Part shown: positions 2,744 through 17,140 of the stretch, piece by piece
How the letters are laid out: every line of letters begins with the position of its first letter
Numbering within the stretch: position 1 is the first letter of the stretch
Virus record (IMG/VR): IMGVR_UViG_3300017971_000875
Coordinates: 1 to 20,164 of that record
From: a virus
Direction: 5' to 3' (one strand)
Length of the DNA stretch: 20,164 nt
Position numbers and translations under genes: made by a program
Notes under the pieces: model-generated
Databases searched by the model: none
Told to the model about the DNA's origin: nothing
Seen by the model: the letters and a program-made list of their open reading frames with translations, nothing else

Positions 2744-3157
2744 ATGGCGAATGAGGACAATGGGACGAATGGAAGGGTGAAGAGCGCAGGGGGCGAATTA
2801 GGGTGCTCTGAGGGGGGGAAGTTCTGGCGGTATTGCAAGGGATGCAAGCGGACGCTGCGGGCGGATGAATTCCAGGATGGGGAGAAGGAATACAGGCAAT
2901 GTAACAAATGCCGGGCGTCGCGGCGGCAATGGGCAGCGCAGAGGAAGCTGGAGCGGCAGGCGCGGGGTGAGGTGGCGAGCGGGCACCATAGGGAGGTCGG
3001 GGATCCGGATACGCTGGCGGCGGTGGAACGATTGGAGGCGGAGGGGTGGGCGCCAGCGGATTGGACGGAGCTGGCGGGGTTGCCGGGGGGGTTCCAGGTG
3101 ATACCAGCGAGGCGGCGGCCGGGGGATAATGGGACGGTGTGGGTTCAATTGCTTTAG
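2744..3157 (+). CDS. Zinc-ribbon protein (137 aa), phage accessory
   Basis: The start ATG at 2744 follows a perfect AGGAGG (2731-2736) with a 7-base gap; the open frame continues upstream through the 24-bp repeats but lacks a comparable start. Residues 26-60 form a four-cysteine zinc ribbon, C31-x2-C34 and C53-x2-C56 (YCKGCKRTL ... QCNKCRASR). This pattern is common at the front of HNH-type and other small phage DNA-binding proteins. A basic helix (RRQWAAQRKLERQAR) follows, then a C-terminal part with no catalytic HNH histidines. A nucleic-acid-binding role is likely; nuclease activity is not supported. Confidence 0.75.
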   Translation: MANEDNGTNGRVKSAGGELGCSEGGKFWRYCKGCKRTLRADEFQDGEKEYRQCNKCRASRRQWAAQRKLERQARGEVASGHHREVGDPDTLAAVERLEAEGWAPADWTELAGLPGGFQVIPARRRPGDNGTVWVQLL

Positions 3158-3175
3158 TGTAGGGCAATATTTAAC

Positions 3176-3201
3176 AAGGATGGACAGGATCAACAGGATG
3201 A
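3176..3201. repeat. ACAGGAT short direct repeat in intergenic leader
   Basis: The gap before the next gene contains GGACAGGATCAACAGGATGA, in which ACAGGAT occurs twice. Similar runs turn up between genes in several bacterial phyla. No function can be assigned. Confidence 0.45.
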
Positions 3202-3214
3202 ATTAGGGGGGGAG

Positions 3215-3697
3215 ATGATTGAGGGGATGAGTTGGGAGGAGGCGCGGGGGATTTGTGAGGAGCACGCGGATGATCTGGTGGGCACACACTGGCCGGAGCT
3301 GGTTTGTCCGCGGTGTGTGACAATTTGGGTGCGAGGGTATGAGTTTAGTGAGGGACAGGTGGCGGTGTTTGTGAAGGGGGCATGGCGGCGGCAGAGGGAG
3401 GGAGAGCGGCCATTTTCGCGGGGGTATTGGCTGGAGCGGGCGCCGTTTTATGGGAGCAGGGGGCGGTATGACGCATTGGTGGCGCTTCTGGGGGAGATCG
3501 GGGCGGTGCAGGATCGGAAGGGGAGGAGCTCAGGGCGGTTGATGTTCCCGCCGAAGACGGTGGTGAGGCAGATTAAGCGCTGGTATGCGCCTGGGCCGCC
3601 TGGGCAGAGTGGGCAGTCTGGGGAGGTTGGGAGTCGCGAATCGGTGGGGGGGGCGAATGGGAGGGGGGAGCGCGATCAAAAAATCGGGAGGGATTGA
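3215..3697 (+). CDS. Hypothetical protein with CPRC motif (160 aa)
   Basis: The start ATG at 3215 lies after AGGGGGGG; an alternative ATG at 3227 would remove four residues. Cysteines are C14, C31 and C34 (LVCPRCVTIW), which might bind a metal together with H17 or H25. The middle is rich in aromatic and basic residues (GAWRRQREGERPFSRGYWL). Residues 127-160 are a low-complexity Gly/Ser/Arg tail. I do not recognise the family. It is the last gene before the promoter/terminator region, so it probably ends the early block. Its stop codon overlaps the TTGACA box at 3694-3699. Confidence 0.65.
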   Translation: MIEGMSWEEARGICEEHADDLVGTHWPELVCPRCVTIWVRGYEFSEGQVAVFVKGAWRRQREGERPFSRGYWLERAPFYGSRGRYDALVALLGEIGAVQDRKGRSSGRLMFPPKTVVRQIKRWYAPGPPGQSGQSGEVGSRESVGGANGRGERDQKIGRD

Positions 3698-3722
3698 CAT
3701 TTTACTATAAATTTGGTTAACT
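3694..3722 (+). promoter_or_regulatory. Candidate promoter: consensus -35 with extended -10
   Basis: TTGACA at 3694-3699 is a perfect -35 box. After a 17-bp spacer, TGG then TTAACT (3714-3722) gives an extended -10 with a weak hexamer (three of six consensus bases). Transcription would start near 3729 and meet the terminator at 3775-3811. Motif-based inference. Confidence 0.45.
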
Positions 3723-3728
3723 GGTGAG

Positions 3729-3742
3729 GACGCGGGGGCGTC
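3729..3742 (+). other. Small hairpin in the leader
   Basis: GACGC (3729-3733) and GCGTC (3738-3742) pair around a GGGG loop. It would form at the very 5' end of a transcript from the candidate promoter at 3694-3722. Confidence 0.4.
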
Positions 3743-3774
3743 GACGCGGTACGTTAAGAAGGTTTGGTTATAAG

Positions 3775-3811
3775 GAGGGGCACACACGGGGTGTGGTGTC
3801 CCTCTTTTTTT
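3775..3811 (+). terminator. Intrinsic terminator before the late operon
   Basis: GAGGGGCACACAC (3775-3787) pairs imperfectly with GTGTGGTGTCCCTC (3791-3804), with one bulged base and a short G-rich loop, and is followed directly by seven T residues (3805-3811). This is a classical Rho-independent terminator. It either ends the early transcript or attenuates transcription into the holin and packaging genes. Confidence 0.8.
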
Positions 3812-3833
3812 ATGATAACGAGGGAGGATAACG

Positions 3834-4142
3834 ATGCAGGTGGAGTATAGCGTGGCGGATTTGCTGACGGTAGGCGGCGTGGGGGCGGTGACGCTGATCC
3901 TGATGCAGTTGGTGCTAAAGCCGTTGTTGGAGGGCCTTGAATCTCCGGAGAAGTGGCGGGGGCTGATCATCAACGGGACGGCGCTGGTGCTGGCGATCGC
4001 GCTGGCAATGGTGGCGGCGGCGGTGTGGATGGGGCTGAATCATTATGGCGTGCTGCAGGCGTTTTTGACCGGGCTGGGAGGCGCGGTGGTGGCGACCTCG
4101 GGGTATGAGGTGGCTAAAAATGCGGTGCGTTTGTTTCATTAA
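3834..4142 (+). CDS. Holin-like small membrane protein
   Basis: A 102-aa protein starting at an ATG with GGGAGG (3822-3827) six bases upstream. Three hydrophobic segments are visible: about residues 10-30, 44-68 (LIINGTALVLAIALAMVAAA) and 72-93. A short basic/acidic loop (EGLESPEKWRG) separates the first two, and the tail is short and charged. Size and topology fit a three-segment (class I-like) holin, which makes holes in the inner membrane at the end of infection. The terminal GYEVAKNAVR is reminiscent of phage holins. The placement ahead of the terminase is unusual and no endolysin is seen in the window. The membrane call is firm; the holin function is inferred. Confidence 0.65.
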   Translation: MQVEYSVADLLTVGGVGAVTLILMQLVLKPLLEGLESPEKWRGLIINGTALVLAIALAMVAAAVWMGLNHYGVLQAFLTGLGGAVVATSGYEVAKNAVRLFH

Positions 4143-4148
4143 CAATGT

Positions 4149-4577
4149 ATGGATGTGCTAAATGGGGTGGAGCTGAATTCACTGCCGGTTTGGGTGATCG
4201 CGGTGGTGATTGCGCTCCGACTGTTGCCTGCGACGGTTAAAGAGCTGGGCGTATTTGTGCCTTCATTGGGGCAATGGGTGGAGGTGCGACAGGCAAAGGT
4301 CCATCACGAGCTAAACTCACACGCAGCGGAGCAGGCGCATGATGTGCTGATTGACACCAAATTACTGACGCTACTGGAAGAGTCACTAAAACAGAGCTGG
4401 CACGCGCAGGAGGAATTAGAAACGCGGATGCGGCAAGTGGTGCAGGAGGTGCAGCGGACAAACGCGCTGGTGTCGGTGCTGAATATCACGATTACGAAGA
4501 TGTGTGACAAAAATATCGAGCTGTTGGGGTATCTAAAGGAGCGAAATTCGGATGACGCGGGATCCGAAAATGCCTAG
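4149..4577 (+). CDS. Membrane-anchored coiled-coil protein
   Basis: 142 aa; it starts seven bases after the holin-like gene. One transmembrane helix lies near the N-terminus (about residues 11-29, SLPVWVIAVVIALRLLPA), followed by a long heptad-rich region (about 60-130) likely to form a coiled coil. Such architecture occurs in phage lysis accessory proteins (antiholin or spanin-like) and in membrane-tethered virion proteins. There is no lipobox or signal-peptidase site. Its end overlaps the next gene by 26 bp. Exact function unknown. Confidence 0.6.
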   Translation: MDVLNGVELNSLPVWVIAVVIALRLLPATVKELGVFVPSLGQWVEVRQAKVHHELNSHAAEQAHDVLIDTKLLTLLEESLKQSWHAQEELETRMRQVVQEVQRTNALVSVLNITITKMCDKNIELLGYLKERNSDDAGSENA

Positions 4578-4908
4578 GATGAACGGGGTAGAATGCCGAT
4601 TAGAATACATACAGGAGGAGATCGAGCGGGCGGTCCTGGAGATCAGGGACGTCGTGGGCAGCGTGCGTATGGATATCGGCAAGCGGTTGATGGTGGTGGG
4701 GAATGATTTGTCACGGCTGATGGATAGGGTGGCGGATGCGAGGCAACTGGCGCAGCCGGAATGCTGGCGGTTAATGATGAGCGTGGACACGGCGCTGGCC
4801 AAAGAGTTTATTCGGGTGATCGAGCCGGAGGTGCTGGCGGAGGCGGTGGCAGAGAGCGAGGAGGGCGACCTGGTGAAGTTTGTTGAGGCGATTGAGGCAA
4901 GGTGGTAG
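4552..4908 (+). CDS. Small helical protein, unknown function
   Basis: 118 aa, overlapping the previous gene by 26 bp in another frame. The start ATG at 4552 is preceded by AAGGAGCGAAATTCGG, a good ribosome-binding site. The protein is predicted helical throughout, with a heptad-like region at about 15-65 (CRLEYIQEEIERAVLEIRDV) and an acidic C-terminal helix pair. It has no transmembrane segment. The overlap suggests co-translation with the membrane-anchored coiled-coil protein, and the two may bind each other through their coiled coils. No family recognised. Confidence 0.6.
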   Translation: MTRDPKMPRMNGVECRLEYIQEEIERAVLEIRDVVGSVRMDIGKRLMVVGNDLSRLMDRVADARQLAQPECWRLMMSVDTALAKEFIRVIEPEVLAEAVAESEEGDLVKFVEAIEARW

Positions 4909-4914
4909 GGGGTT

Positions 4915-5022
4915 TCTCGCGTTTTTAGATCTGGGGTGGAGTTGAGATCCCATTCCGAGCCGGACCCCTCTAGGTGAGGAATTCCCCCAACTTAGCTCCA
5001 CTTCAGATCTAAGGATGCGAGA
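4915..5022 (+). ncRNA. Long structured RNA hairpin upstream of terS (candidate)
   Basis: Arms 4915-4946 and 4991-5022 pair base for base over 32 positions with no bulge or mismatch: 25 Watson-Crick pairs and seven G-U wobbles (at 4921, 4923, 4924, 4934, 4935, 4942 and 4944). All seven are G-U in the + strand RNA; the other strand would show A-C clashes. The 44-nt loop can form a small CCTC/GAGG hairpin (4967-4979) or an ATTCC/GGAAT pairing (4952-4956 with 4978-4982). It lies 11 bases ahead of the terS ATG. It could be a 5' UTR control element, a separate small RNA, or a DNA-level packaging signal. No family recognised. Confidence 0.6.
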
Positions 5023-5033
5023 CAGGTAAGCGT

Positions 5034-5660
5034 ATGCATGAGATTCAGAGTTTACCGGGGATGGAGGGCGCGTTGAATCCTCGGGATGAAGCACAGATGA
5101 GAAGCGACCGAGCGCGGGCGATTTTTGAGGCGGCGGATGAGGTGAGCCCGTGGATGGATGATTATTGGGCGCTGATCGGGGAGGGCTGGCCATGGAGACA
5201 GGCGATTTACATGGTGTGGTCTAGTTTGCCGAAGGATCAGCGGGTGCCACGGACGCAGTATGATTTGGCGCGGGAGGTGCTGGGGTTGACGTCGGACCGG
5301 CAGATACGCGAGTGGCGGGATAAAAACCCAGCCATGGATGCGCGGATTGCGAAGCTGGCGGCGAGCGCGCTGGGGAAGGCGCGGGCGGAGATCTATGAAG
5401 CGCTGATACAATCGGCGAGCAAGGCGGATCCGCGAGCACATTCGGACCGGAAGCTGGCGCTGGAGATGCTGGGGGATTATGTGCCGAAGCAGGTTATGAG
5501 TGTGGGGCCGGTGGTGGCGGAGGATCTGGAGGAGATGGAGACGGAGGATCTGGTGGCGCTGGCACAGGTTCCGGGCGGAGAACCAGAGCAGGGGGAGGAT
5601 GAGGGATATAGCGAAGCGGGAGCTGGCGCGGCGGGAGCTGGCGCGGCGGTCGCTGATTGA
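5034..5660 (+). CDS. terS: Phage terminase small subunit
   Basis: 208 aa. TerS proteins recognise the viral DNA end or pac site and feed it to the large subunit. Here residues 51-97 (GWPWRQAIYMVW ... QYDLAREVLGLTSDRQIREW) fit the helix-turn-helix of TerS. They are followed by the typical helical oligomerisation stretch, including ARIAKLAASALGKARAEIYE. The acidic/Gly-Ala-rich tail (161-208) covers the part that overlaps terL. The ATG at 5034 has only a weak AGGTAA upstream; the ATG at 5061 is an alternative. The position directly before terL supports the call. The tail contains AGAGAAGAGAA, encoded by a 15-bp tandem repeat shared with terL in another frame. Confidence 0.8.
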   Translation: MHEIQSLPGMEGALNPRDEAQMRSDRARAIFEAADEVSPWMDDYWALIGEGWPWRQAIYMVWSSLPKDQRVPRTQYDLAREVLGLTSDRQIREWRDKNPAMDARIAKLAASALGKARAEIYEALIQSASKADPRAHSDRKLALEMLGDYVPKQVMSVGPVVAEDLEEMETEDLVALAQVPGGEPEQGEDEGYSEAGAGAAGAGAAVAD

Positions 5661-7146
5661 CTTTGCGTGGTATACGTTCCGCCAATACGAGCGGGCGCGG
5701 GTGCATGGGGCATTGGCGGCGAAGCTAGAGCAGGTTGAGCGGTATATCGCGACGGGGGGAAGAGAGGGGATCGGGCGGTTGATGGTATTTATGCCGCCGA
5801 GACACGGGAAGAGCGAGCTGGTGAGCGTGCGATTCCCGGCGTGGTTTCTGGGGCGCAATCCGGATTGTCAGGTGATTTTGACGTCGTGCACAGCGGATTT
5901 GGCGGTCAGTTTCGCGAGACGGGTGCGGAATATCGTGATGGATGGTCCGTTTCAAAATGTTTTTGGGGCAAGGAGCGGACGGCCGGTGAATAAGGCAGTG
6001 ATGGTGGCGGAGGACAGCCGGGCGGCGAATGCATGGACGCTGGCCAGGCAACGGGGCGGATTGGTTGCTGCCGGTGTCGGCGGCGCGATTATCGGCCGGG
6101 GGGCGCATCTGGCGGTGATTGACGATCCGTTTCGGGATCGGAAGGACGCGGAGAGCGAGAGCGTGCGAGATGGGGTGGACGATTGGTATAGATCGACGCT
6201 GTACACACGCTTGGAGAAGGGGGGGGCGGTGGTGTTGATGCACCAGCGGTGGCACAGCGATGATTTGGCGGGGCGGCTTTTGCGACGGATGGTAGAGACA
6301 AATCAGCAAACAGGCGGGCAGGTTGACAGGTGGGAGGTGTTGTGTCTGCCTGCGGTGGCGGAGGATTGGGCGGATGAGGTTGAGGCGGAGGATGTTATCA
6401 GGGCGCTGGAGGATGGATGGTGGCAAGGCGTGGATGCGCTGGTGCGGCAGCCGGGGGAGGCGTTGTGGCCGGGGAAGTACGGCCTGGAGCGGTTGAGCGC
6501 GATTGAACGGAATATCGGCGGATATGAGTGGGACGCGCTATACCAGCAACGACCGCGGCGGTTGGAAGGGGCGCTGATCAAGGCATACGATATTATTCAA
6601 ATTATGGAACGAGATTTACCGGAGAGGATGCAGGAATGCCGGTATTGGGATCTGGCAGTGAGCGGGAGAGAGGGCGCGGATTTTATCGCCGGGGCCCGGG
6701 TGGGACGAAGCCGGGACGGGCGGTTGTATATTTTGGACGTGGCGAAGATGCCGGGTCCGTGGGCGGATGCGAAGGGGCGAATGATCCAGGTGATGCAGGA
6801 CGATCCGCCAGAGGTGACCCAAGGGATTGAGGTGGCGGGTCAGCAGGCGGGATATTTTCAGGAATTGCAACGCGATGCGCGGCTGCAGGGGCGGGTGATC
6901 CAGGGGGTTAACCCGACGCGGTACGGGAATAAGGAAGTGCGAGCGAACGTCTGGGCGAGCAGGATCCCGGATCGCCTGGTGTACCTGGTGCGCGGCGGGG
7001 AGTGGGTGGATGGATTTTTGAGCGAGGCGCTGGCGTTTCCGCGGGGTGCGCACGACGATCAGGTGGACGCAGTGAGCGGGGCGGTGGCGATGATGTGGCG
7101 GCCGGGGGTGCTGGAGTATGAGGGGGAGAACCCGTTTTATGACTAG
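5599..7146 (+). CDS. terL: Phage terminase large subunit
   Basis: 515-aa DNA-packaging motor and nuclease. Walker A MPPRHGKSE is at residues 65-73; Walker B LAVIDDPF is at 171-178. The RNase-H-like nuclease domain has YWDLAVSG around D351 and HDDQVDAVSGA at 485-495. The spacing and motifs match the TIGR01630/Terminase_6 (psiM2 ORF9-like) group. The start ATG at 5599 is inside the terS tail (62-bp overlap), with AGGGGGAGG just before it; the frame stays open further upstream, but that part is an Arg/Trp-rich read of the terS sequence. The N-terminus KRELARRELARRS is encoded by the 15-bp tandem repeat. It powers genome entry into the portal encoded next. Confidence 0.95.
   Translation: MRDIAKRELARRELARRSLIDFAWYTFRQYERARVHGALAAKLEQVERYIATGGREGIGRLMVFMPPRHGKSELVSVRFPAWFLGRNPDCQVILTSCTADLAVSFARRVRNIVMDGPFQNVFGARSGRPVNKAVMVAEDSRAANAWTLARQRGGLVAAGVGGAIIGRGAHLAVIDDPFRDRKDAESESVRDGVDDWYRSTLYTRLEKGGAVVLMHQRWHSDDLAGRLLRRMVETNQQTGGQVDRWEVLCLPAVAEDWADEVEAEDVIRALEDGWWQGVDALVRQPGEALWPGKYGLERLSAIERNIGGYEWDALYQQRPRRLEGALIKAYDIIQIMERDLPERMQECRYWDLAVSGREGADFIAGARVGRSRDGRLYILDVAKMPGPWADAKGRMIQVMQDDPPEVTQGIEVAGQQAGYFQELQRDARLQGRVIQGVNPTRYGNKEVRANVWASRIPDRLVYLVRGGEWVDGFLSEALAFPRGAHDDQVDAVSGAVAMMWRPGVLEYEGENPFYD
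5616..5645. repeat. 15-bp tandem repeat in the terS/terL overlap
   Basis: GCGGGAGCTGGCGCG occurs twice exactly (5616-5630 and 5631-5645), with a decayed third start at 5646. It is read in two frames: as AGAGA in TerS and as RELAR in TerL. Confidence 0.9.
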
Positions 7147-12391: not shown

Positions 12392-12457
12392 CTCCCTCCC
12401 CCAGCCCCTCCCAGCGGGAGGGGAGTAGGAAGCAGCTCCTCCCGCTGGGAGGGGAGC
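12392..12457. repeat. Dispersed GC-rich palindrome, copy B
   Basis: CTCCCTCCCCCAGCCCCTCC, then CAGCGGGAGGGGAG, is followed by a second near-palindrome (12435-12457, GCTCCTCCCGCTGGGAGGGG). It fills most of the gap between scaffold and capsid genes. Same family as copies A, C and D. Confidence 0.8.
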
Positions 12458-13792: not shown

Positions 13793-13817
13793 GTAGGTAA
13801 TGGGGTAGGTAGGTAAT
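13786..13817. repeat. Two perfect 16-bp tandem repeats
   Basis: GGGGTAGGTAGGTAAT occurs at 13786-13801 and 13802-13817; the first copy includes the stop codon of the preceding gene. Confidence 0.9.
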
Positions 13818-13822
13818 GAGGA

Positions 13823-13871
13823 TCTCCCTCCCCCAACCCCTCCCAGTGGGAGGGGGGATGGGGAGGGGGAT
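13823..13871. repeat. Dispersed GC-rich palindrome, copy C
   Basis: CTCCCTCCCCCAACCCCTCC, then CAGTGGGAGGGG and GATGGGGAGGGGGATC. It lies ahead of the GT-B gene; reading it as protein gives ISLPQPLPVGGG, which is not part of the enzyme. Confidence 0.75.
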
Positions 13872-13890
13872 CCTGGAAAAGGGGGAGGTT

Positions 13891-15114
13891 GTGAGGATAT
13901 ATTGGCATAGTACGGCACCATGGAGCCCGAGCAGTTATTCGGTGTTGACGATGCGGGCGGTTCCGCCGATTGTACGGGCGGGGTATGAGGTGGTGCTGGG
14001 GACGTGGTACGGTTTGCAGGGTCAACCTATGCCGTGGACGATCCAGGCGAACGGGAAGAAAGCGACGTCTGTACGGGTGTTGCCGCATCACCAGGTGGGG
14101 GGGAATACGTACGGCGAGGCGATCATGGTGGAGAATTACCGCCGCAATGAGTGTGACGTGATGATGACGGTGTGTGACGTGTTTGTGTTTCCGCCAGAGG
14201 AGACAAGCAAAACGAATTTCGCTCCGTGGCTGCCAATCGATACGAGCCCGGTGGCTGGGGGTATCGTGCGGGCGTTGGGTCCGGCGATTTATCCGATGTG
14301 CTATAGCCAGTTTGGAGTGGATGAGCTGGCGAAGGCGGGTATTAATGCGAAATATGTGCCGTGTGGGGCTCCGATGGATGTGTTTACGCCGGGAGACAAG
14401 GCGGAGGCGCGGACGCGGTTCGACCTGGGACGGGAGTTTGATTTCCTGGTGAGTATGATAGCGGCGAACAAAGACGCGAACGATCGCAAAGGGTTCGCTG
14501 TGGCGCTGCAGGGGTTTGCGCAGTTCGTGGAGCGACGGCCAGAGGCACAGGCGGTGCTGTACGTGCACACGGATTGGGGCGGGCCGATAAAGGTGGGGGA
14601 GATCGCGAAGTCGCTGGGAGTGGGCGAGCACGTGGTGCAGCCGGATCAGTACGGGTACATTATGGGGATGCTGGGCGAGCAATATATGGTGGATGTGTAC
14701 CGGGCGTCGGATGTGCTGCTAAATCCGGCTAAATCGGAGGGGTTTGGCTTGCCGCTGGTGGAAGCGCAGATGTGCGGATGTCCGGTGATCGCGACGGATT
14801 TTGCAAACACGGATGAGCTGCTGAGCGCGGGATGGAAGGTGGGGGGACACCGGGCATGGTATCCGGGGGCGGAGGCGTGGCGGATGGAGGTGGAGCCGGG
14901 CCAGATCGCGGATGCCATGGAAGAGGCATGGCAGGAGCGGGATAATCCGAAGTTGAGGGAGAAGGCGCGGAAGGGCGTGGCCAAATACGATCAGGAGGCG
15001 GTTTTTGAGAAGTATTGGCGGCCTGCATTGCGGGATATCAAGAAGTTGGTGGATGCGGGGAAGAGTTTCTCCCTCCCCGAGCCCCTCCCGCTGGGAGGGG
15101 AGCAAGCGGAATGA
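13891..15114 (+). CDS. GT-B fold glycosyltransferase (GT4-like)
   Basis: 407 aa. I chose the GTG at 13891 because the frame then begins (V/M)RIYWHSTAPWSPSSY, the first beta strand and loop of GT-B enzymes, and GGGGGAGG (13881-13888) precedes it. The longer frame starts inside the palindromic repeat. The donor-binding C-terminal domain has the E-x7-E motif: E283-GFGLPLV-E291, in NPAKSEGFGLPLVEAQMCGC. The enzyme moves a sugar from a nucleotide donor, probably with retention as in GT4. The last 16 residues (about GKSFSLPEPLPLGGEQAE) are encoded by palindrome copy D and are likely a recent extension. Its stop overlaps the formyltransferase start (ATGA). Substrate unknown. Confidence 0.88.
   Translation: MRIYWHSTAPWSPSSYSVLTMRAVPPIVRAGYEVVLGTWYGLQGQPMPWTIQANGKKATSVRVLPHHQVGGNTYGEAIMVENYRRNECDVMMTVCDVFVFPPEETSKTNFAPWLPIDTSPVAGGIVRALGPAIYPMCYSQFGVDELAKAGINAKYVPCGAPMDVFTPGDKAEARTRFDLGREFDFLVSMIAANKDANDRKGFAVALQGFAQFVERRPEAQAVLYVHTDWGGPIKVGEIAKSLGVGEHVVQPDQYGYIMGMLGEQYMVDVYRASDVLLNPAKSEGFGLPLVEAQMCGCPVIATDFANTDELLSAGWKVGGHRAWYPGAEAWRMEVEPGQIADAMEEAWQERDNPKLREKARKGVAKYDQEAVFEKYWRPALRDIKKLVDAGKSFSLPEPLPLGGEQAE
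15068..15103. repeat. Dispersed GC-rich palindrome, copy D, within the GT coding end
   Basis: CTCCCTCCCCGAGCCCCTCC, then CGCTGGGAGGGGAG. It is in frame with the glycosyltransferase and encodes SLPEPLPLGGE. Confidence 0.85.
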
Positions 15115-15908
15115 AGCTGTTTTTGTGCGGTTTTGGGGTGGCAGGGGAGAGCGTGCTGCGGCGTGTGGTGAAGCGGCCAGATATTAATGAGGTGGCGGTT
15201 TTTACGCACGAGGCGGGAGTGCTGGGTCAGAGCTTGATGGGTGCGGCCGGGGAGCTGGGGGTGTGGTGCACGACGGGCAGCGTTAATCAGATGGGCCTAT
15301 GGCCGTTTGAGCCCGACGTGATTTCGAGTGTGTATTACCGGACGATCGTTAAGCCGCACGTGATCGATGCGGTAGGGGGGCGGATTTTCAACGCGCATTC
15401 GTCGCTGTTGCCACGGCACAGGGGAAGGTCGCCGGTGGCGTGGGCGATTGTGGAGGGGGATTTTACTACGGGTGTGACGTTTCATTATATAGATGAAGGG
15501 ATCGACACGGGCAAGGTGATTTTGCAGGTACCGATCCGGGTGGCGCCAGATGAGACGCAGGCGAGTCTATTTTCTAAGGTCGACGATGCGACGGTGGAAT
15601 ACTGGTCTACGGCGCTAACGATGGTGAAGTGGGGGTTGACGGGCTGGGAGCAAACGGCGGGGCTAACAAGCAATATGAGCTATCACAGCGCGGGTCCGCC
15701 GTATGGGGGGCGGATCGATCCGAATTGGCCGGAGGATCAGGTGGAGCGGTTTATTCGGGCTATGACGTATCCGCCGTTGCCGTACGCGACGGTGTATGGA
15801 GAGGAAGTCAGGAATCTGGATGAGTACAGAACGGTTTTACAACGTCACCATAGAGACGCCGTTTCGGAACAACGAGCGGCACATCGATCAATACATACAG
15901 CAAGCTGA
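15111..15908 (+). CDS. Formyltransferase (sugar N-formyltransferase-like)
   Basis: 265 aa, with the start ATG overlapping the previous TGA. The N10-formyl-tetrahydrofolate transferase core is clear: FNAHSSLLPRHRGRSPVAWA with N94 and H96, and the downstream HYIDEGIDTGKVILQ with D132. The H-to-D distance of 36 residues equals that of methionyl-tRNA formyltransferase (H108, D144), so the catalytic triad is intact. The protein lacks the tRNA-binding C-terminal domain of Fmt. Together with the glycosyltransferases around it, this points to N-formylation of an amino sugar, as for the formylated 3- and 4-amino sugars of surface glycans. No amino-sugar synthesis genes are seen, so the substrate may come from the host. 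The C-terminus overlaps the next gene by 89 bp. Confidence 0.88.
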   Translation: MKLFLCGFGVAGESVLRRVVKRPDINEVAVFTHEAGVLGQSLMGAAGELGVWCTTGSVNQMGLWPFEPDVISSVYYRTIVKPHVIDAVGGRIFNAHSSLLPRHRGRSPVAWAIVEGDFTTGVTFHYIDEGIDTGKVILQVPIRVAPDETQASLFSKVDDATVEYWSTALTMVKWGLTGWEQTAGLTSNMSYHSAGPPYGGRIDPNWPEDQVERFIRAMTYPPLPYATVYGEEVRNLDEYRTVLQRHHRDAVSEQRAAHRSIHTAS

Positions 15909-16548
15909 GGCGATCGACTATCCTCCCGAGCGGCTGCGCTGGGTCCTCGTGGAAGGGGACTCGGAGGATAACACGCTGGCGATGCTGGATGCGTGGGCGC
16001 ATGGCGATCGGCGACGGAAGATCACGAAGTGCGACACGGGGAAGCCACATTATGGGAGCATCGTGCATCCAGAGCGGTTTGCGACGCTGGCCAGGGTGTT
16101 TAATCACGGGCTGGAGGTGGCGATCGAGGATGATTGGGCTGATTACGTGTGGTTTATTCCCAGCGATGTGATCTATAAGCCGGATACGCTGCGGCGGTTG
16201 CTGAGCTGGGAGAAGGACGTGATCAGCCCTATGTTCTGGATTGGGGATCACCAGGGGGATCCGGTGCAGAACGCGAACGGGATGCGATTTTACGACGTGT
16301 GGGGTTTCATCCGGGAGGGGAGGCCGTTTCCGCCGTACGGTCCGGCGTGGTACGCGGCGCATTATCCGCAGGGGGCGATTGAGATGGAGACGACGGGGGG
16401 GATGATGTTGATGCGGGCGGATGTGCCACGGGCGGGATGTCGGCACACGGCGGAGGATGTGGATCACGGGTTGTGCGTGATGGCTCGGGAGGCGGGTTTT
16501 GAGGTGTGGTGTGATACGAGCACGCACATTGTGCATGGGGAGCGGTGA
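15820..16548 (+). CDS. Second glycosyltransferase (GT-A, GT2/GT62-like)
   Basis: 242 aa. The ATG at 15820 is preferred because AGGA (15810-15813) is six bases upstream and the protein then begins at the first strand (MSTERFYNVTIETPFRNNER). The segment EAIDYPPERLRWVLVEGDSE, then DNTLAML, is typical of GT-A enzymes. FIPSDVIYKPDTLRRLL holds the usual metal-binding position, here SDV (115-117) instead of a plain DxD. The rest matches Anp1/GT62-like and GT2-like proteins, including GGMMLMRADVPR and a late H/D-rich part. The gene overlaps both neighbours (89 bp with the formyltransferase, 14 bp with the next). Acceptor and donor are unknown. Confidence 0.75.
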   Translation: MSTERFYNVTIETPFRNNERHIDQYIQQAEAIDYPPERLRWVLVEGDSEDNTLAMLDAWAHGDRRRKITKCDTGKPHYGSIVHPERFATLARVFNHGLEVAIEDDWADYVWFIPSDVIYKPDTLRRLLSWEKDVISPMFWIGDHQGDPVQNANGMRFYDVWGFIREGRPFPPYGPAWYAAHYPQGAIEMETTGGMMLMRADVPRAGCRHTAEDVDHGLCVMAREAGFEVWCDTSTHIVHGER

Positions 16549-17140
16549 GTTTTACAGGGATGGACAGGTGACTGGCAGGGCGTTTATGATTTACGGTCCG
16601 GAGAGCAGCGGGAATCGACTTTTGCGGAGGATCCTGATCGATGGGGCGGGATGCGCGGGGGATCGAGATCTGGAGCAGAGGTTTGATCAGAGGCTGCCAT
16701 TGGCGGAGGATGAGCCGCTGATCGTGTGGGGTCGGAGTGTGCCGGGGATGGTTCCTCGGGGGAATTGGCCGCGATTTTACGATCGGGATGTGGGACAGGC
16801 GCGGAAGCACGGCTATGAGGTGTTTGGGTTGGTGCTGGTGCGTGATTGGTGTTGTATGGTGCAGAGCCAGGTGGACACGGAGTACAAGGCGGGGGCTAAT
16901 TACGGCTTGAATAGCCAGGCGGCGATGGATGTGTACACGAGAATATTCGATGCGTTTGAGCGGCTGGCGGTGTCGTATATGATCGTTTCGTATGAGGCGC
17001 TGGTGATGCGGCCGGAGAGGTTTGTGAGGCGGTTGTTTCGGGACTTGGGTCTTGACCAGGTAGGGGAGATCGAGGCGGTCTACGACGGGAACGCGAAGTA
17101 TTATGAGCGCTGGGCAAATCCGAATGTGAGGGATGCATGA
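16535..17140 (+). CDS. Sulfotransferase-like protein
   Basis: 201 aa if begun at the ATG at 16535, which overlaps the GT stop; a GTG at 16568 with AGGGA upstream and an ATG at 16586 are reasonable alternatives. The P-loop-like 5'-phosphosulfate-binding motif is IYGPESSGNRLLRRIL (GPESSGNR at 21-28). LVRDWCCMVQSQV, with R103 and S111, fits the 3'-phosphate loop. The C-terminus has VSYEALVMRPERFVRRLFRD plus LGL, matching the RYEDL block of PAPS sulfotransferases. It would add sulfate from PAPS to a sugar hydroxyl. It is somewhat small (family usually 250-300 aa). A nucleotide kinase is a less likely alternative. Its stop overlaps the beta-helix start (ATGA). Confidence 0.7.
   Translation: MGSGEFYRDGQVTGRAFMIYGPESSGNRLLRRILIDGAGCAGDRDLEQRFDQRLPLAEDEPLIVWGRSVPGMVPRGNWPRFYDRDVGQARKHGYEVFGLVLVRDWCCMVQSQVDTEYKAGANYGLNSQAAMDVYTRIFDAFERLAVSYMIVSYEALVMRPERFVRRLFRDLGLDQVGEIEAVYDGNAKYYERWANPNVRDA

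Follow-up and report, generated by a model that had tools for sequence, protein, structure and literature searches.

Does the long hairpin lying just upstream of the small terminase gene (terS) of this phage act as RNA or as DNA, and what would it do at the boundary between lysis and packaging genes? In the window, i.e., the whole stretch of 20,164 nucleotides that was analysed, the initial annotation had described a 32-bp stem in which all seven non-Watson-Crick pairs are G-U, and had proposed selection on an RNA transcribed in the + direction. Re-pairing of both arms (4915-4946 and 4991-5022) confirms the stem: 32 consecutive pairs without gap, with 7 G-U and no A-C on the + strand. The + strand RNA fold of the 108-base hairpin has an MFE of −60.7 kcal/mol (z −8.6; none of 200 dinucleotide shuffles equals it). 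With 10-18 flanking bases, z is −5.2 for the + strand vs. −2.5 for the − strand. The only other inverted repeat of the window reaching 32 nt is 917-948/1021-1052, which is 81% complementary; it is part of a small repeat family, i.e., inverted copies of AAGTTCCAAAGTTCC with four arms in 260 bases (917-1174). The features of the locus are collected in Table 1.

Table 1. Hairpin and surrounding features, in positions of the window (W: hairpin or locus of this window; L-numbers, in the text: loci of relatives).
Feature	Position	Strand	Basis or remark
Whole RNA hairpin element	4915-5022	+	Pairing and fold; model R1 score 55.7 bits (W is a training member)
P1 left arm, 11 nt	4915-4925	+	Pairs with 5012-5022; alignment A3, columns 3-13
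T opposite A5011	4926	+	Paired in W; G·G mismatch in many relatives
P2 left arm, 14 nt, AGATCTGGGGTGGA	4927-4940	+	Pairs with 4997-5010; A3 columns 17-30
Apical domain, 56 nt	4941-4996	+	C 34%, G 23% vs. C 19%, G 40% in the window
P2 right arm	4997-5010	+	Alignment A3
P1 right arm	5012-5022	+	Alignment A3
Upstream ORF, 118 aa, no assigned function	4552-4908	+	Stop codon 6 nt 5' of the hairpin
terS, 208 aa	5034-5660	+	ATG 11 nt 3' of the hairpin; Shine-Dalgarno-like AGG outside the stem
terL core (Terminase_6N)	5599-7146	+	Domain match
Small membrane-protein-like ORF, holin position of the lysis region	3834-4142	+	Inferred from synteny; no family match
Intrinsic terminator ahead of the lysis region	3772-3809	+	Terminator scan

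The hairpin occupies the gap that separates the upstream stop codon (4906-4908) from the ATG at 5034. Its initial placement just before terS holds, the downstream gene being terS by position, homology and a weak fold match: the gene adjoins that of TerL and its product is homologous to other TerL-linked proteins (77 distinct loci). TerS is unrecognised by Pfam and PHROGs. Its predicted fold (mean pLDDT 66) comprises an HTH-like helical domain and a long helical hairpin, and its best PDB match, a weak one (E 0.09, probability 0.96), is phBC6A51, which is listed as a small terminase (PMC10370121). The late-region genes of the window comprise TerL with Terminase_6N, an SPP1-type portal, a Mu-F-like protein and the capsid. 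Judged by eye, a run of ORFs in the late region (13816-17140) resembles glycosyltransferases, a formyltransferase and a sulfotransferase. A palindromic CCCTCCCAGCGGGAGG-like repeat is present in and between genes (12405-12454, 13819-13874 and ~15060-15110), with peptides such as SLP.PLP.GGE.

Searches with TerS and TerL led to 77 distinct TerS loci, and the 31 closest were folded in the region 5' of terS. Strong hairpins of similar size are found there in about two thirds of these 31 loci; the homologous hairpins share their location, with the lysis genes on one side and terS-terL on the other, and about one third of the close relatives have no detectable copy. When 2.6 kb on each side are scanned for folding energy, the most strongly folded segment lies within 180 bases 5' of the TerS LPG codon in 12 of the 31 closest loci vs. 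2 of 41 more distant ones, one of these two (L153) being a hit of the covariance model described below. The element has a two-part stem, i.e., P1 (~11 bp), often a G·G mismatch, and P2 (~14 bp), with a variable C-rich apex (overall 80-110 nt). Recurring letters in 11 aligned hairpins are a basal UCG, CUGGG..GGA on the left, and UCC..CCAG and GAGG on the right. The G·G mismatch between P1 and P2, at the position equivalent to 4926, is found in many hairpins (e.g., L002, L018, L124, L019, L135, L140, L144, L024), and a pair takes its place in W, L125 and L136.

In the training alignment (n=11, 25 stem pairs), 93.8% of the cells are paired and two-sided changes occur at 18 of the 25 pairs; the covariation is 0.556 vs. 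0.280 (sd 0.026) for shuffles and no more than 0.126 with the arms slid. The covariance search suggested in the initial annotation was run with model R1, built from these 11 hairpins (its E-values are rough), and led to ten untrained members (L024, L011, L155, L122, L022, L154, L131, L013, L153 and L132), all on the + strand and 5' of terS or terL. Two-sided changes are present in them at 23 of the 25 pairs, with a covariation of 0.80 vs. 0.28 (sd 0.03) for shuffles. Over the members, 92-94% of the stem cells are paired, a value that is inflated for the untrained set, since its alignment was made by fitting to the model; comparison with the shuffled and slid controls gives the fairer measure. 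The family thus counts 21 member loci, known from metagenomic contigs. Relatives that keep the DNA and lose the pairing had been named as contrary to an RNA; the opposite is seen, i.e., the sequence changes and the pairing stays.

The ratio of G-U to A-C in stem cells is 39:2 in the training set and 35:6 in the untrained set; the hairpins were gathered by + strand RNA folding, which somewhat favours G-U, and W, with 7:0, came from a strand-neutral repeat search. Compared with the expectation from arm composition (0.67 and 0.63), the G-U share gives p values of 2e-5 and 3e-3, in which cells are treated as independent although related sequences are not. The + strand of the window is G-rich (skew 0.3-0.5 over most of its length). 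The general strand bias against which the initial annotation had cautioned accounts for part of the wobble asymmetry; the G-U excess nevertheless survives the correction for arm composition. In most members the + strand folds much better than the − strand, each with reference to its own shuffles; the folding energies of L013 and L141 have no + strand preference. Covariation above shuffled and slid controls in both sets, together with the corrected G-U excess, supports the proposed selection on a + direction RNA, and these comparisons make it almost certain that the hairpin is a selected RNA structure of the + strand.

Chance, a strand-composition artefact or a mobile palindromic repeat has by comparison a negligible probability. 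The G-rich + strand does favour G-U, but the z of −8.6 is relative to shuffles of that same strand, and the compensatory changes in two sets already refute such an artefact. Against a mobile repeat stand the single copy and the one genomic place: the element is at one place per searched record, second matches being the opposite strand of the palindrome or at chance level, and model R1 matches nothing in 0.63 Mb of sequence from more distant terminase loci. Nothing points to the transposon-derived inverted repeat considered at the outset, with one copy per record and no transposase noticed nearby.

Rfam includes a phage pRNA family. The search of the whole window with Rfam 15 gives no match at the gathering cut-off and, in permissive mode, two matches of chance level (E 3.7 and 9.2), so that the comparison with phi29 pRNA made initially is unsupported as far as relatedness is concerned. 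Compensatory changes above the controls and the finding of untrained members lead to the assignment that, on alignment and model evidence, the hairpin is a member of a previously uncatalogued structured-RNA family, without Rfam match. A likeness of the loop (GATCCCATTCCGAGC) to 5S rRNA was fleeting and is not backed by Rfam. An intrinsic terminator was also rejected: no U-tract is present 3' of the stem (the sequence after 5022 is CAGGTAAGCG) and the hairpin is absent from the terminator scan.

In viral contigs, a degenerate stem pattern gives 79 loci, among which the sole strong model match besides L018 is again the L124 contig, the rest being chance, and an exact loop search gives no match. 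Only short chance matches are obtained by blastn with phage records, and nothing relevant was found in the open literature on terminase-linked hairpin RNA or on phages of Chloroflexi. The one genomic relative of TerL that is as close as 65% identity is in a Chloroflexi MAG, itself without the element; from this relative, the hosts of these phages are probably Chloroflexota. In 400 genomes of the phylum of this MAG, model R1 has two matches of chance level (E ~0.005), neither with a terminase in the 3 kb of sequence covered. About five gains or losses of the element are counted on the TerS tree vs. a shuffled mean of 13.9, i.e., the distribution is clustered but patchy.

The C-rich loop noted initially in W is a family-wide feature: apical domains are C-rich in all 21 members (34-61%), in loci poor in C (17-26%). 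The sequence ACCC(C)GCCC is shared by L018, L020, L132, L135, L140 and L144, with a T-first version in L125, and could be a binding motif.

In 18 of the 21 loci, a strong intrinsic terminator precedes the lysis region, 0.36-2.6 kb 5' of the element. In the window (3690-3833) it reads GAGGGGCACACACGGGGTGTGGTGTCCCTC followed by seven T, directly 5' of the holin-position gene. The three exceptions are L125 and L018, with little upstream sequence, and L024, with a terminator just 3' of the element. The order terminator, lysis genes, hairpin, terS, terL is lambda-like and suggests a lambda-like late control by antitermination; since the terminator lies upstream, before the lysis genes, the element falls within the late transcription unit rather than at its end. 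A motif GGCGTTAGCGTAA, absent from this window, stands directly 5' of late terminators elsewhere (L004:1477-1539, twice in L004; L137:2057; L138:1640; L319:4909) and is a possible late-promoter or antitermination site.

The gene preceding the element varies by phage (Amidase_2, peptidase M23, coiled-coil or orphan proteins). Its stop lies within a few bases of the stem in about half of the loci, the element starting at −12 to +7 nt from it in W, L124, L125, L002, L140, L135, L155, L144, L122, L022 and L132; the next start codon is at most 13 nt 3' of the element in many loci. In most cases terS follows; L011 and L122 have a different small gene there, and L022 has terL. In the record of L022 and L128, the element is 33 nt 5' of terL and terS is 25 kb away near tail genes. 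Since following genes vary and terS is relocated in L022, the element is tied more closely to the junction of lysis and terminase genes than to terS. With L128/L303 (6022-6549) and L304, one record shows terS 25 kb away from terL and adjacent to a tape-measure-like gene, i.e., a split terminase pair.

Some placements depart from this arrangement. The best-scoring copy of L024 stands before the terminator and the holin, 1.2 kb from terS; in the same record a second strong hairpin (L024:3093-3198) is 5' of terS, perhaps a second or older copy. In L013, L132, L153 and L154, and in hairpins of related position in L004/L005, L006, L015 and L141 (missed or barely scored by the model), the stem is in a frame continuous with terS; these in-frame members may have the same role or a different one. 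The hairpins of L004 (3311-3449), L015, L006 and L141 are large and lie where the terS frame is extended at its N-terminus. VSQSVP is common to L004 and L015, between which a C-G pair is exchanged for T-A without loss of pairing; protein sequence and stem thus seem to be maintained jointly there. In L009, a U-tracted terminator is at the spot of the element, which can thus serve as a transcript boundary. In this locus (3150-3290 and 6868-6972) the terminator and CCCCCCACGCGTGGGGGG replace the element, and near copies of the palindrome are present elsewhere.

The possible functions can now be weighed. P1 might hold or crowd the ribosome site of terS or of the next gene, a ribosome at the upstream stop opening P1 and coupling translation. 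This would fit L018, L020 and L124, in which the P1 right arm has GAGG and terS starts at the end of the arm, and L002, L125 and L124, in which the upstream stop codon is at the left foot. Such control is nevertheless rather unlikely: the Shine-Dalgarno-like sequence is outside the stem in W, L002, L125, L140 and L144, L024, L019, L122, L011 and L155 have the next start codon at a distance of tens to hundreds of nt or a different gene at that place, the next gene is terL in L022, and several stems are inside a coding frame. Shine-Dalgarno masking, shown by some members only, was rejected as a general function, and translational coupling is attractive for L018, L020 and L124, not in general. 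An element acting on RNA polymerase (an HK022 put-type antiterminator, an attenuator or a pause site) would agree with an RNA inside a late unit that begins with a strong intrinsic terminator, and in L024 the element does precede that terminator; its probability is low, however, as 18 of the 21 loci carry the element downstream of the terminator that needs to be overcome. Moreover, put RNAs (~70 nt) have two stem-loops and are localized after early promoters (PMC9378689). The element is one long hairpin, not two stem-loops, and identity with put RNA was rejected.

The same low level of belief is given to a pac or cos site, i.e., a packaging recognition site in DNA at the lambda-type cos place between lysis genes and terS. 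The gene order terminator-lysis-element-terS-terL and the single copy agree with it; coding and noncoding placement are both tolerated, and pac sites inside terS genes are known. HK97 TerS binds next to cos (PMC10370121). But a duplex-DNA site or a cruciform should accept A-C as readily as G-T, contrary to the ratios of 39:2 and 35:6; the stem sequence varies widely while the pairing stays, and in G012 the element did not follow terS. Finally, an RNA freed from the late transcript could act in trans with the terminase or portal, or be virion-associated, functionally like phi29 pRNA, and would then add a second type of packaging RNA to that of phi29, for phages whose terminase is T4-type. The element is terminase-linked in 21 of 21 loci, it stays with terL when terS leaves, and processing of a long hairpin could free an RNA. 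This role is very improbable all the same, given that there is no Rfam match, that about one third of the close relatives are without detectable copy and that T4-type terminases (Terminase_6N) are not known to need RNA.

The tentatively preferred reading, drawn from sequence and gene order, is a cis-acting element for processing or insulation of the late mRNA, between its lysis and packaging parts. It is preferred because the element is intercistronic, indifferent to the identity of its neighbours and downstream of the late terminator. Polymerase would proceed from the lysis genes to terS-terL and the head genes, giving a polycistronic late mRNA; a long duplex would form behind a ribosome stopping at the foot of the hairpin and become a processing or insulation point, in the simplest case an RNase III-type cut or a stable end; the lysis mRNA would be separated from the packaging/head mRNA, with independent translation and decay. 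Intergenic RNase III hairpins of this kind are present in T7 early RNA and comparable phage transcripts. When no more than one mismatch is allowed, the longest helix measures 11-33 bp (median 21; RNase III: roughly two helical turns), and some members therefore fall short of an ideal RNase III substrate. Also against processing, a cut in the members in the terS frame (L013, L132, L153, L154, etc.) would sever the terS message, and the L024 copy stands outside the lysis/terS junction described for the others, before the holin. Conservation of stem letters, like the C-richness of the apex, hints at some specific partner, for which a plain RNase III site has no need.

A strongly covarying RNA family without Rfam match is thus fixed at the lysis/packaging boundary in a lineage of uncultured phages. 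It offers a testable handle on the way in which the late operon apportions expression to its lysis and head genes; should the RNA turn out to work with the terminase, the question of a part for RNA in packaging outside the phi29 group would be reopened. The covariance model and the coordinates of the 21 members make the family searchable.

Compared with known systems, the element resembles: (i) RNase III hairpins (T7 early RNA) in that a long duplex separates two cistrons of a single phage transcript, but here the apex is C-rich, stem letters are partly conserved, some members are inside the terS frame and cleavage is only putative; (ii) the lambda/HK97 cos region by the same genomic place (lysis genes, site, terS, terL), whereas cos acts as DNA, and here the pairing and the G-U bias point to RNA; (iii) HK022 put RNA in being a structured RNA encoded in cis within a terminator-containing phage transcription unit, but it is a single hairpin of 80-110 nt that belongs to the late region and mostly follows the late terminator; (iv) phi29 packaging RNA as a phage RNA beside packaging functions, with a different terminase type and, here, one plain hairpin outside the Rfam families.
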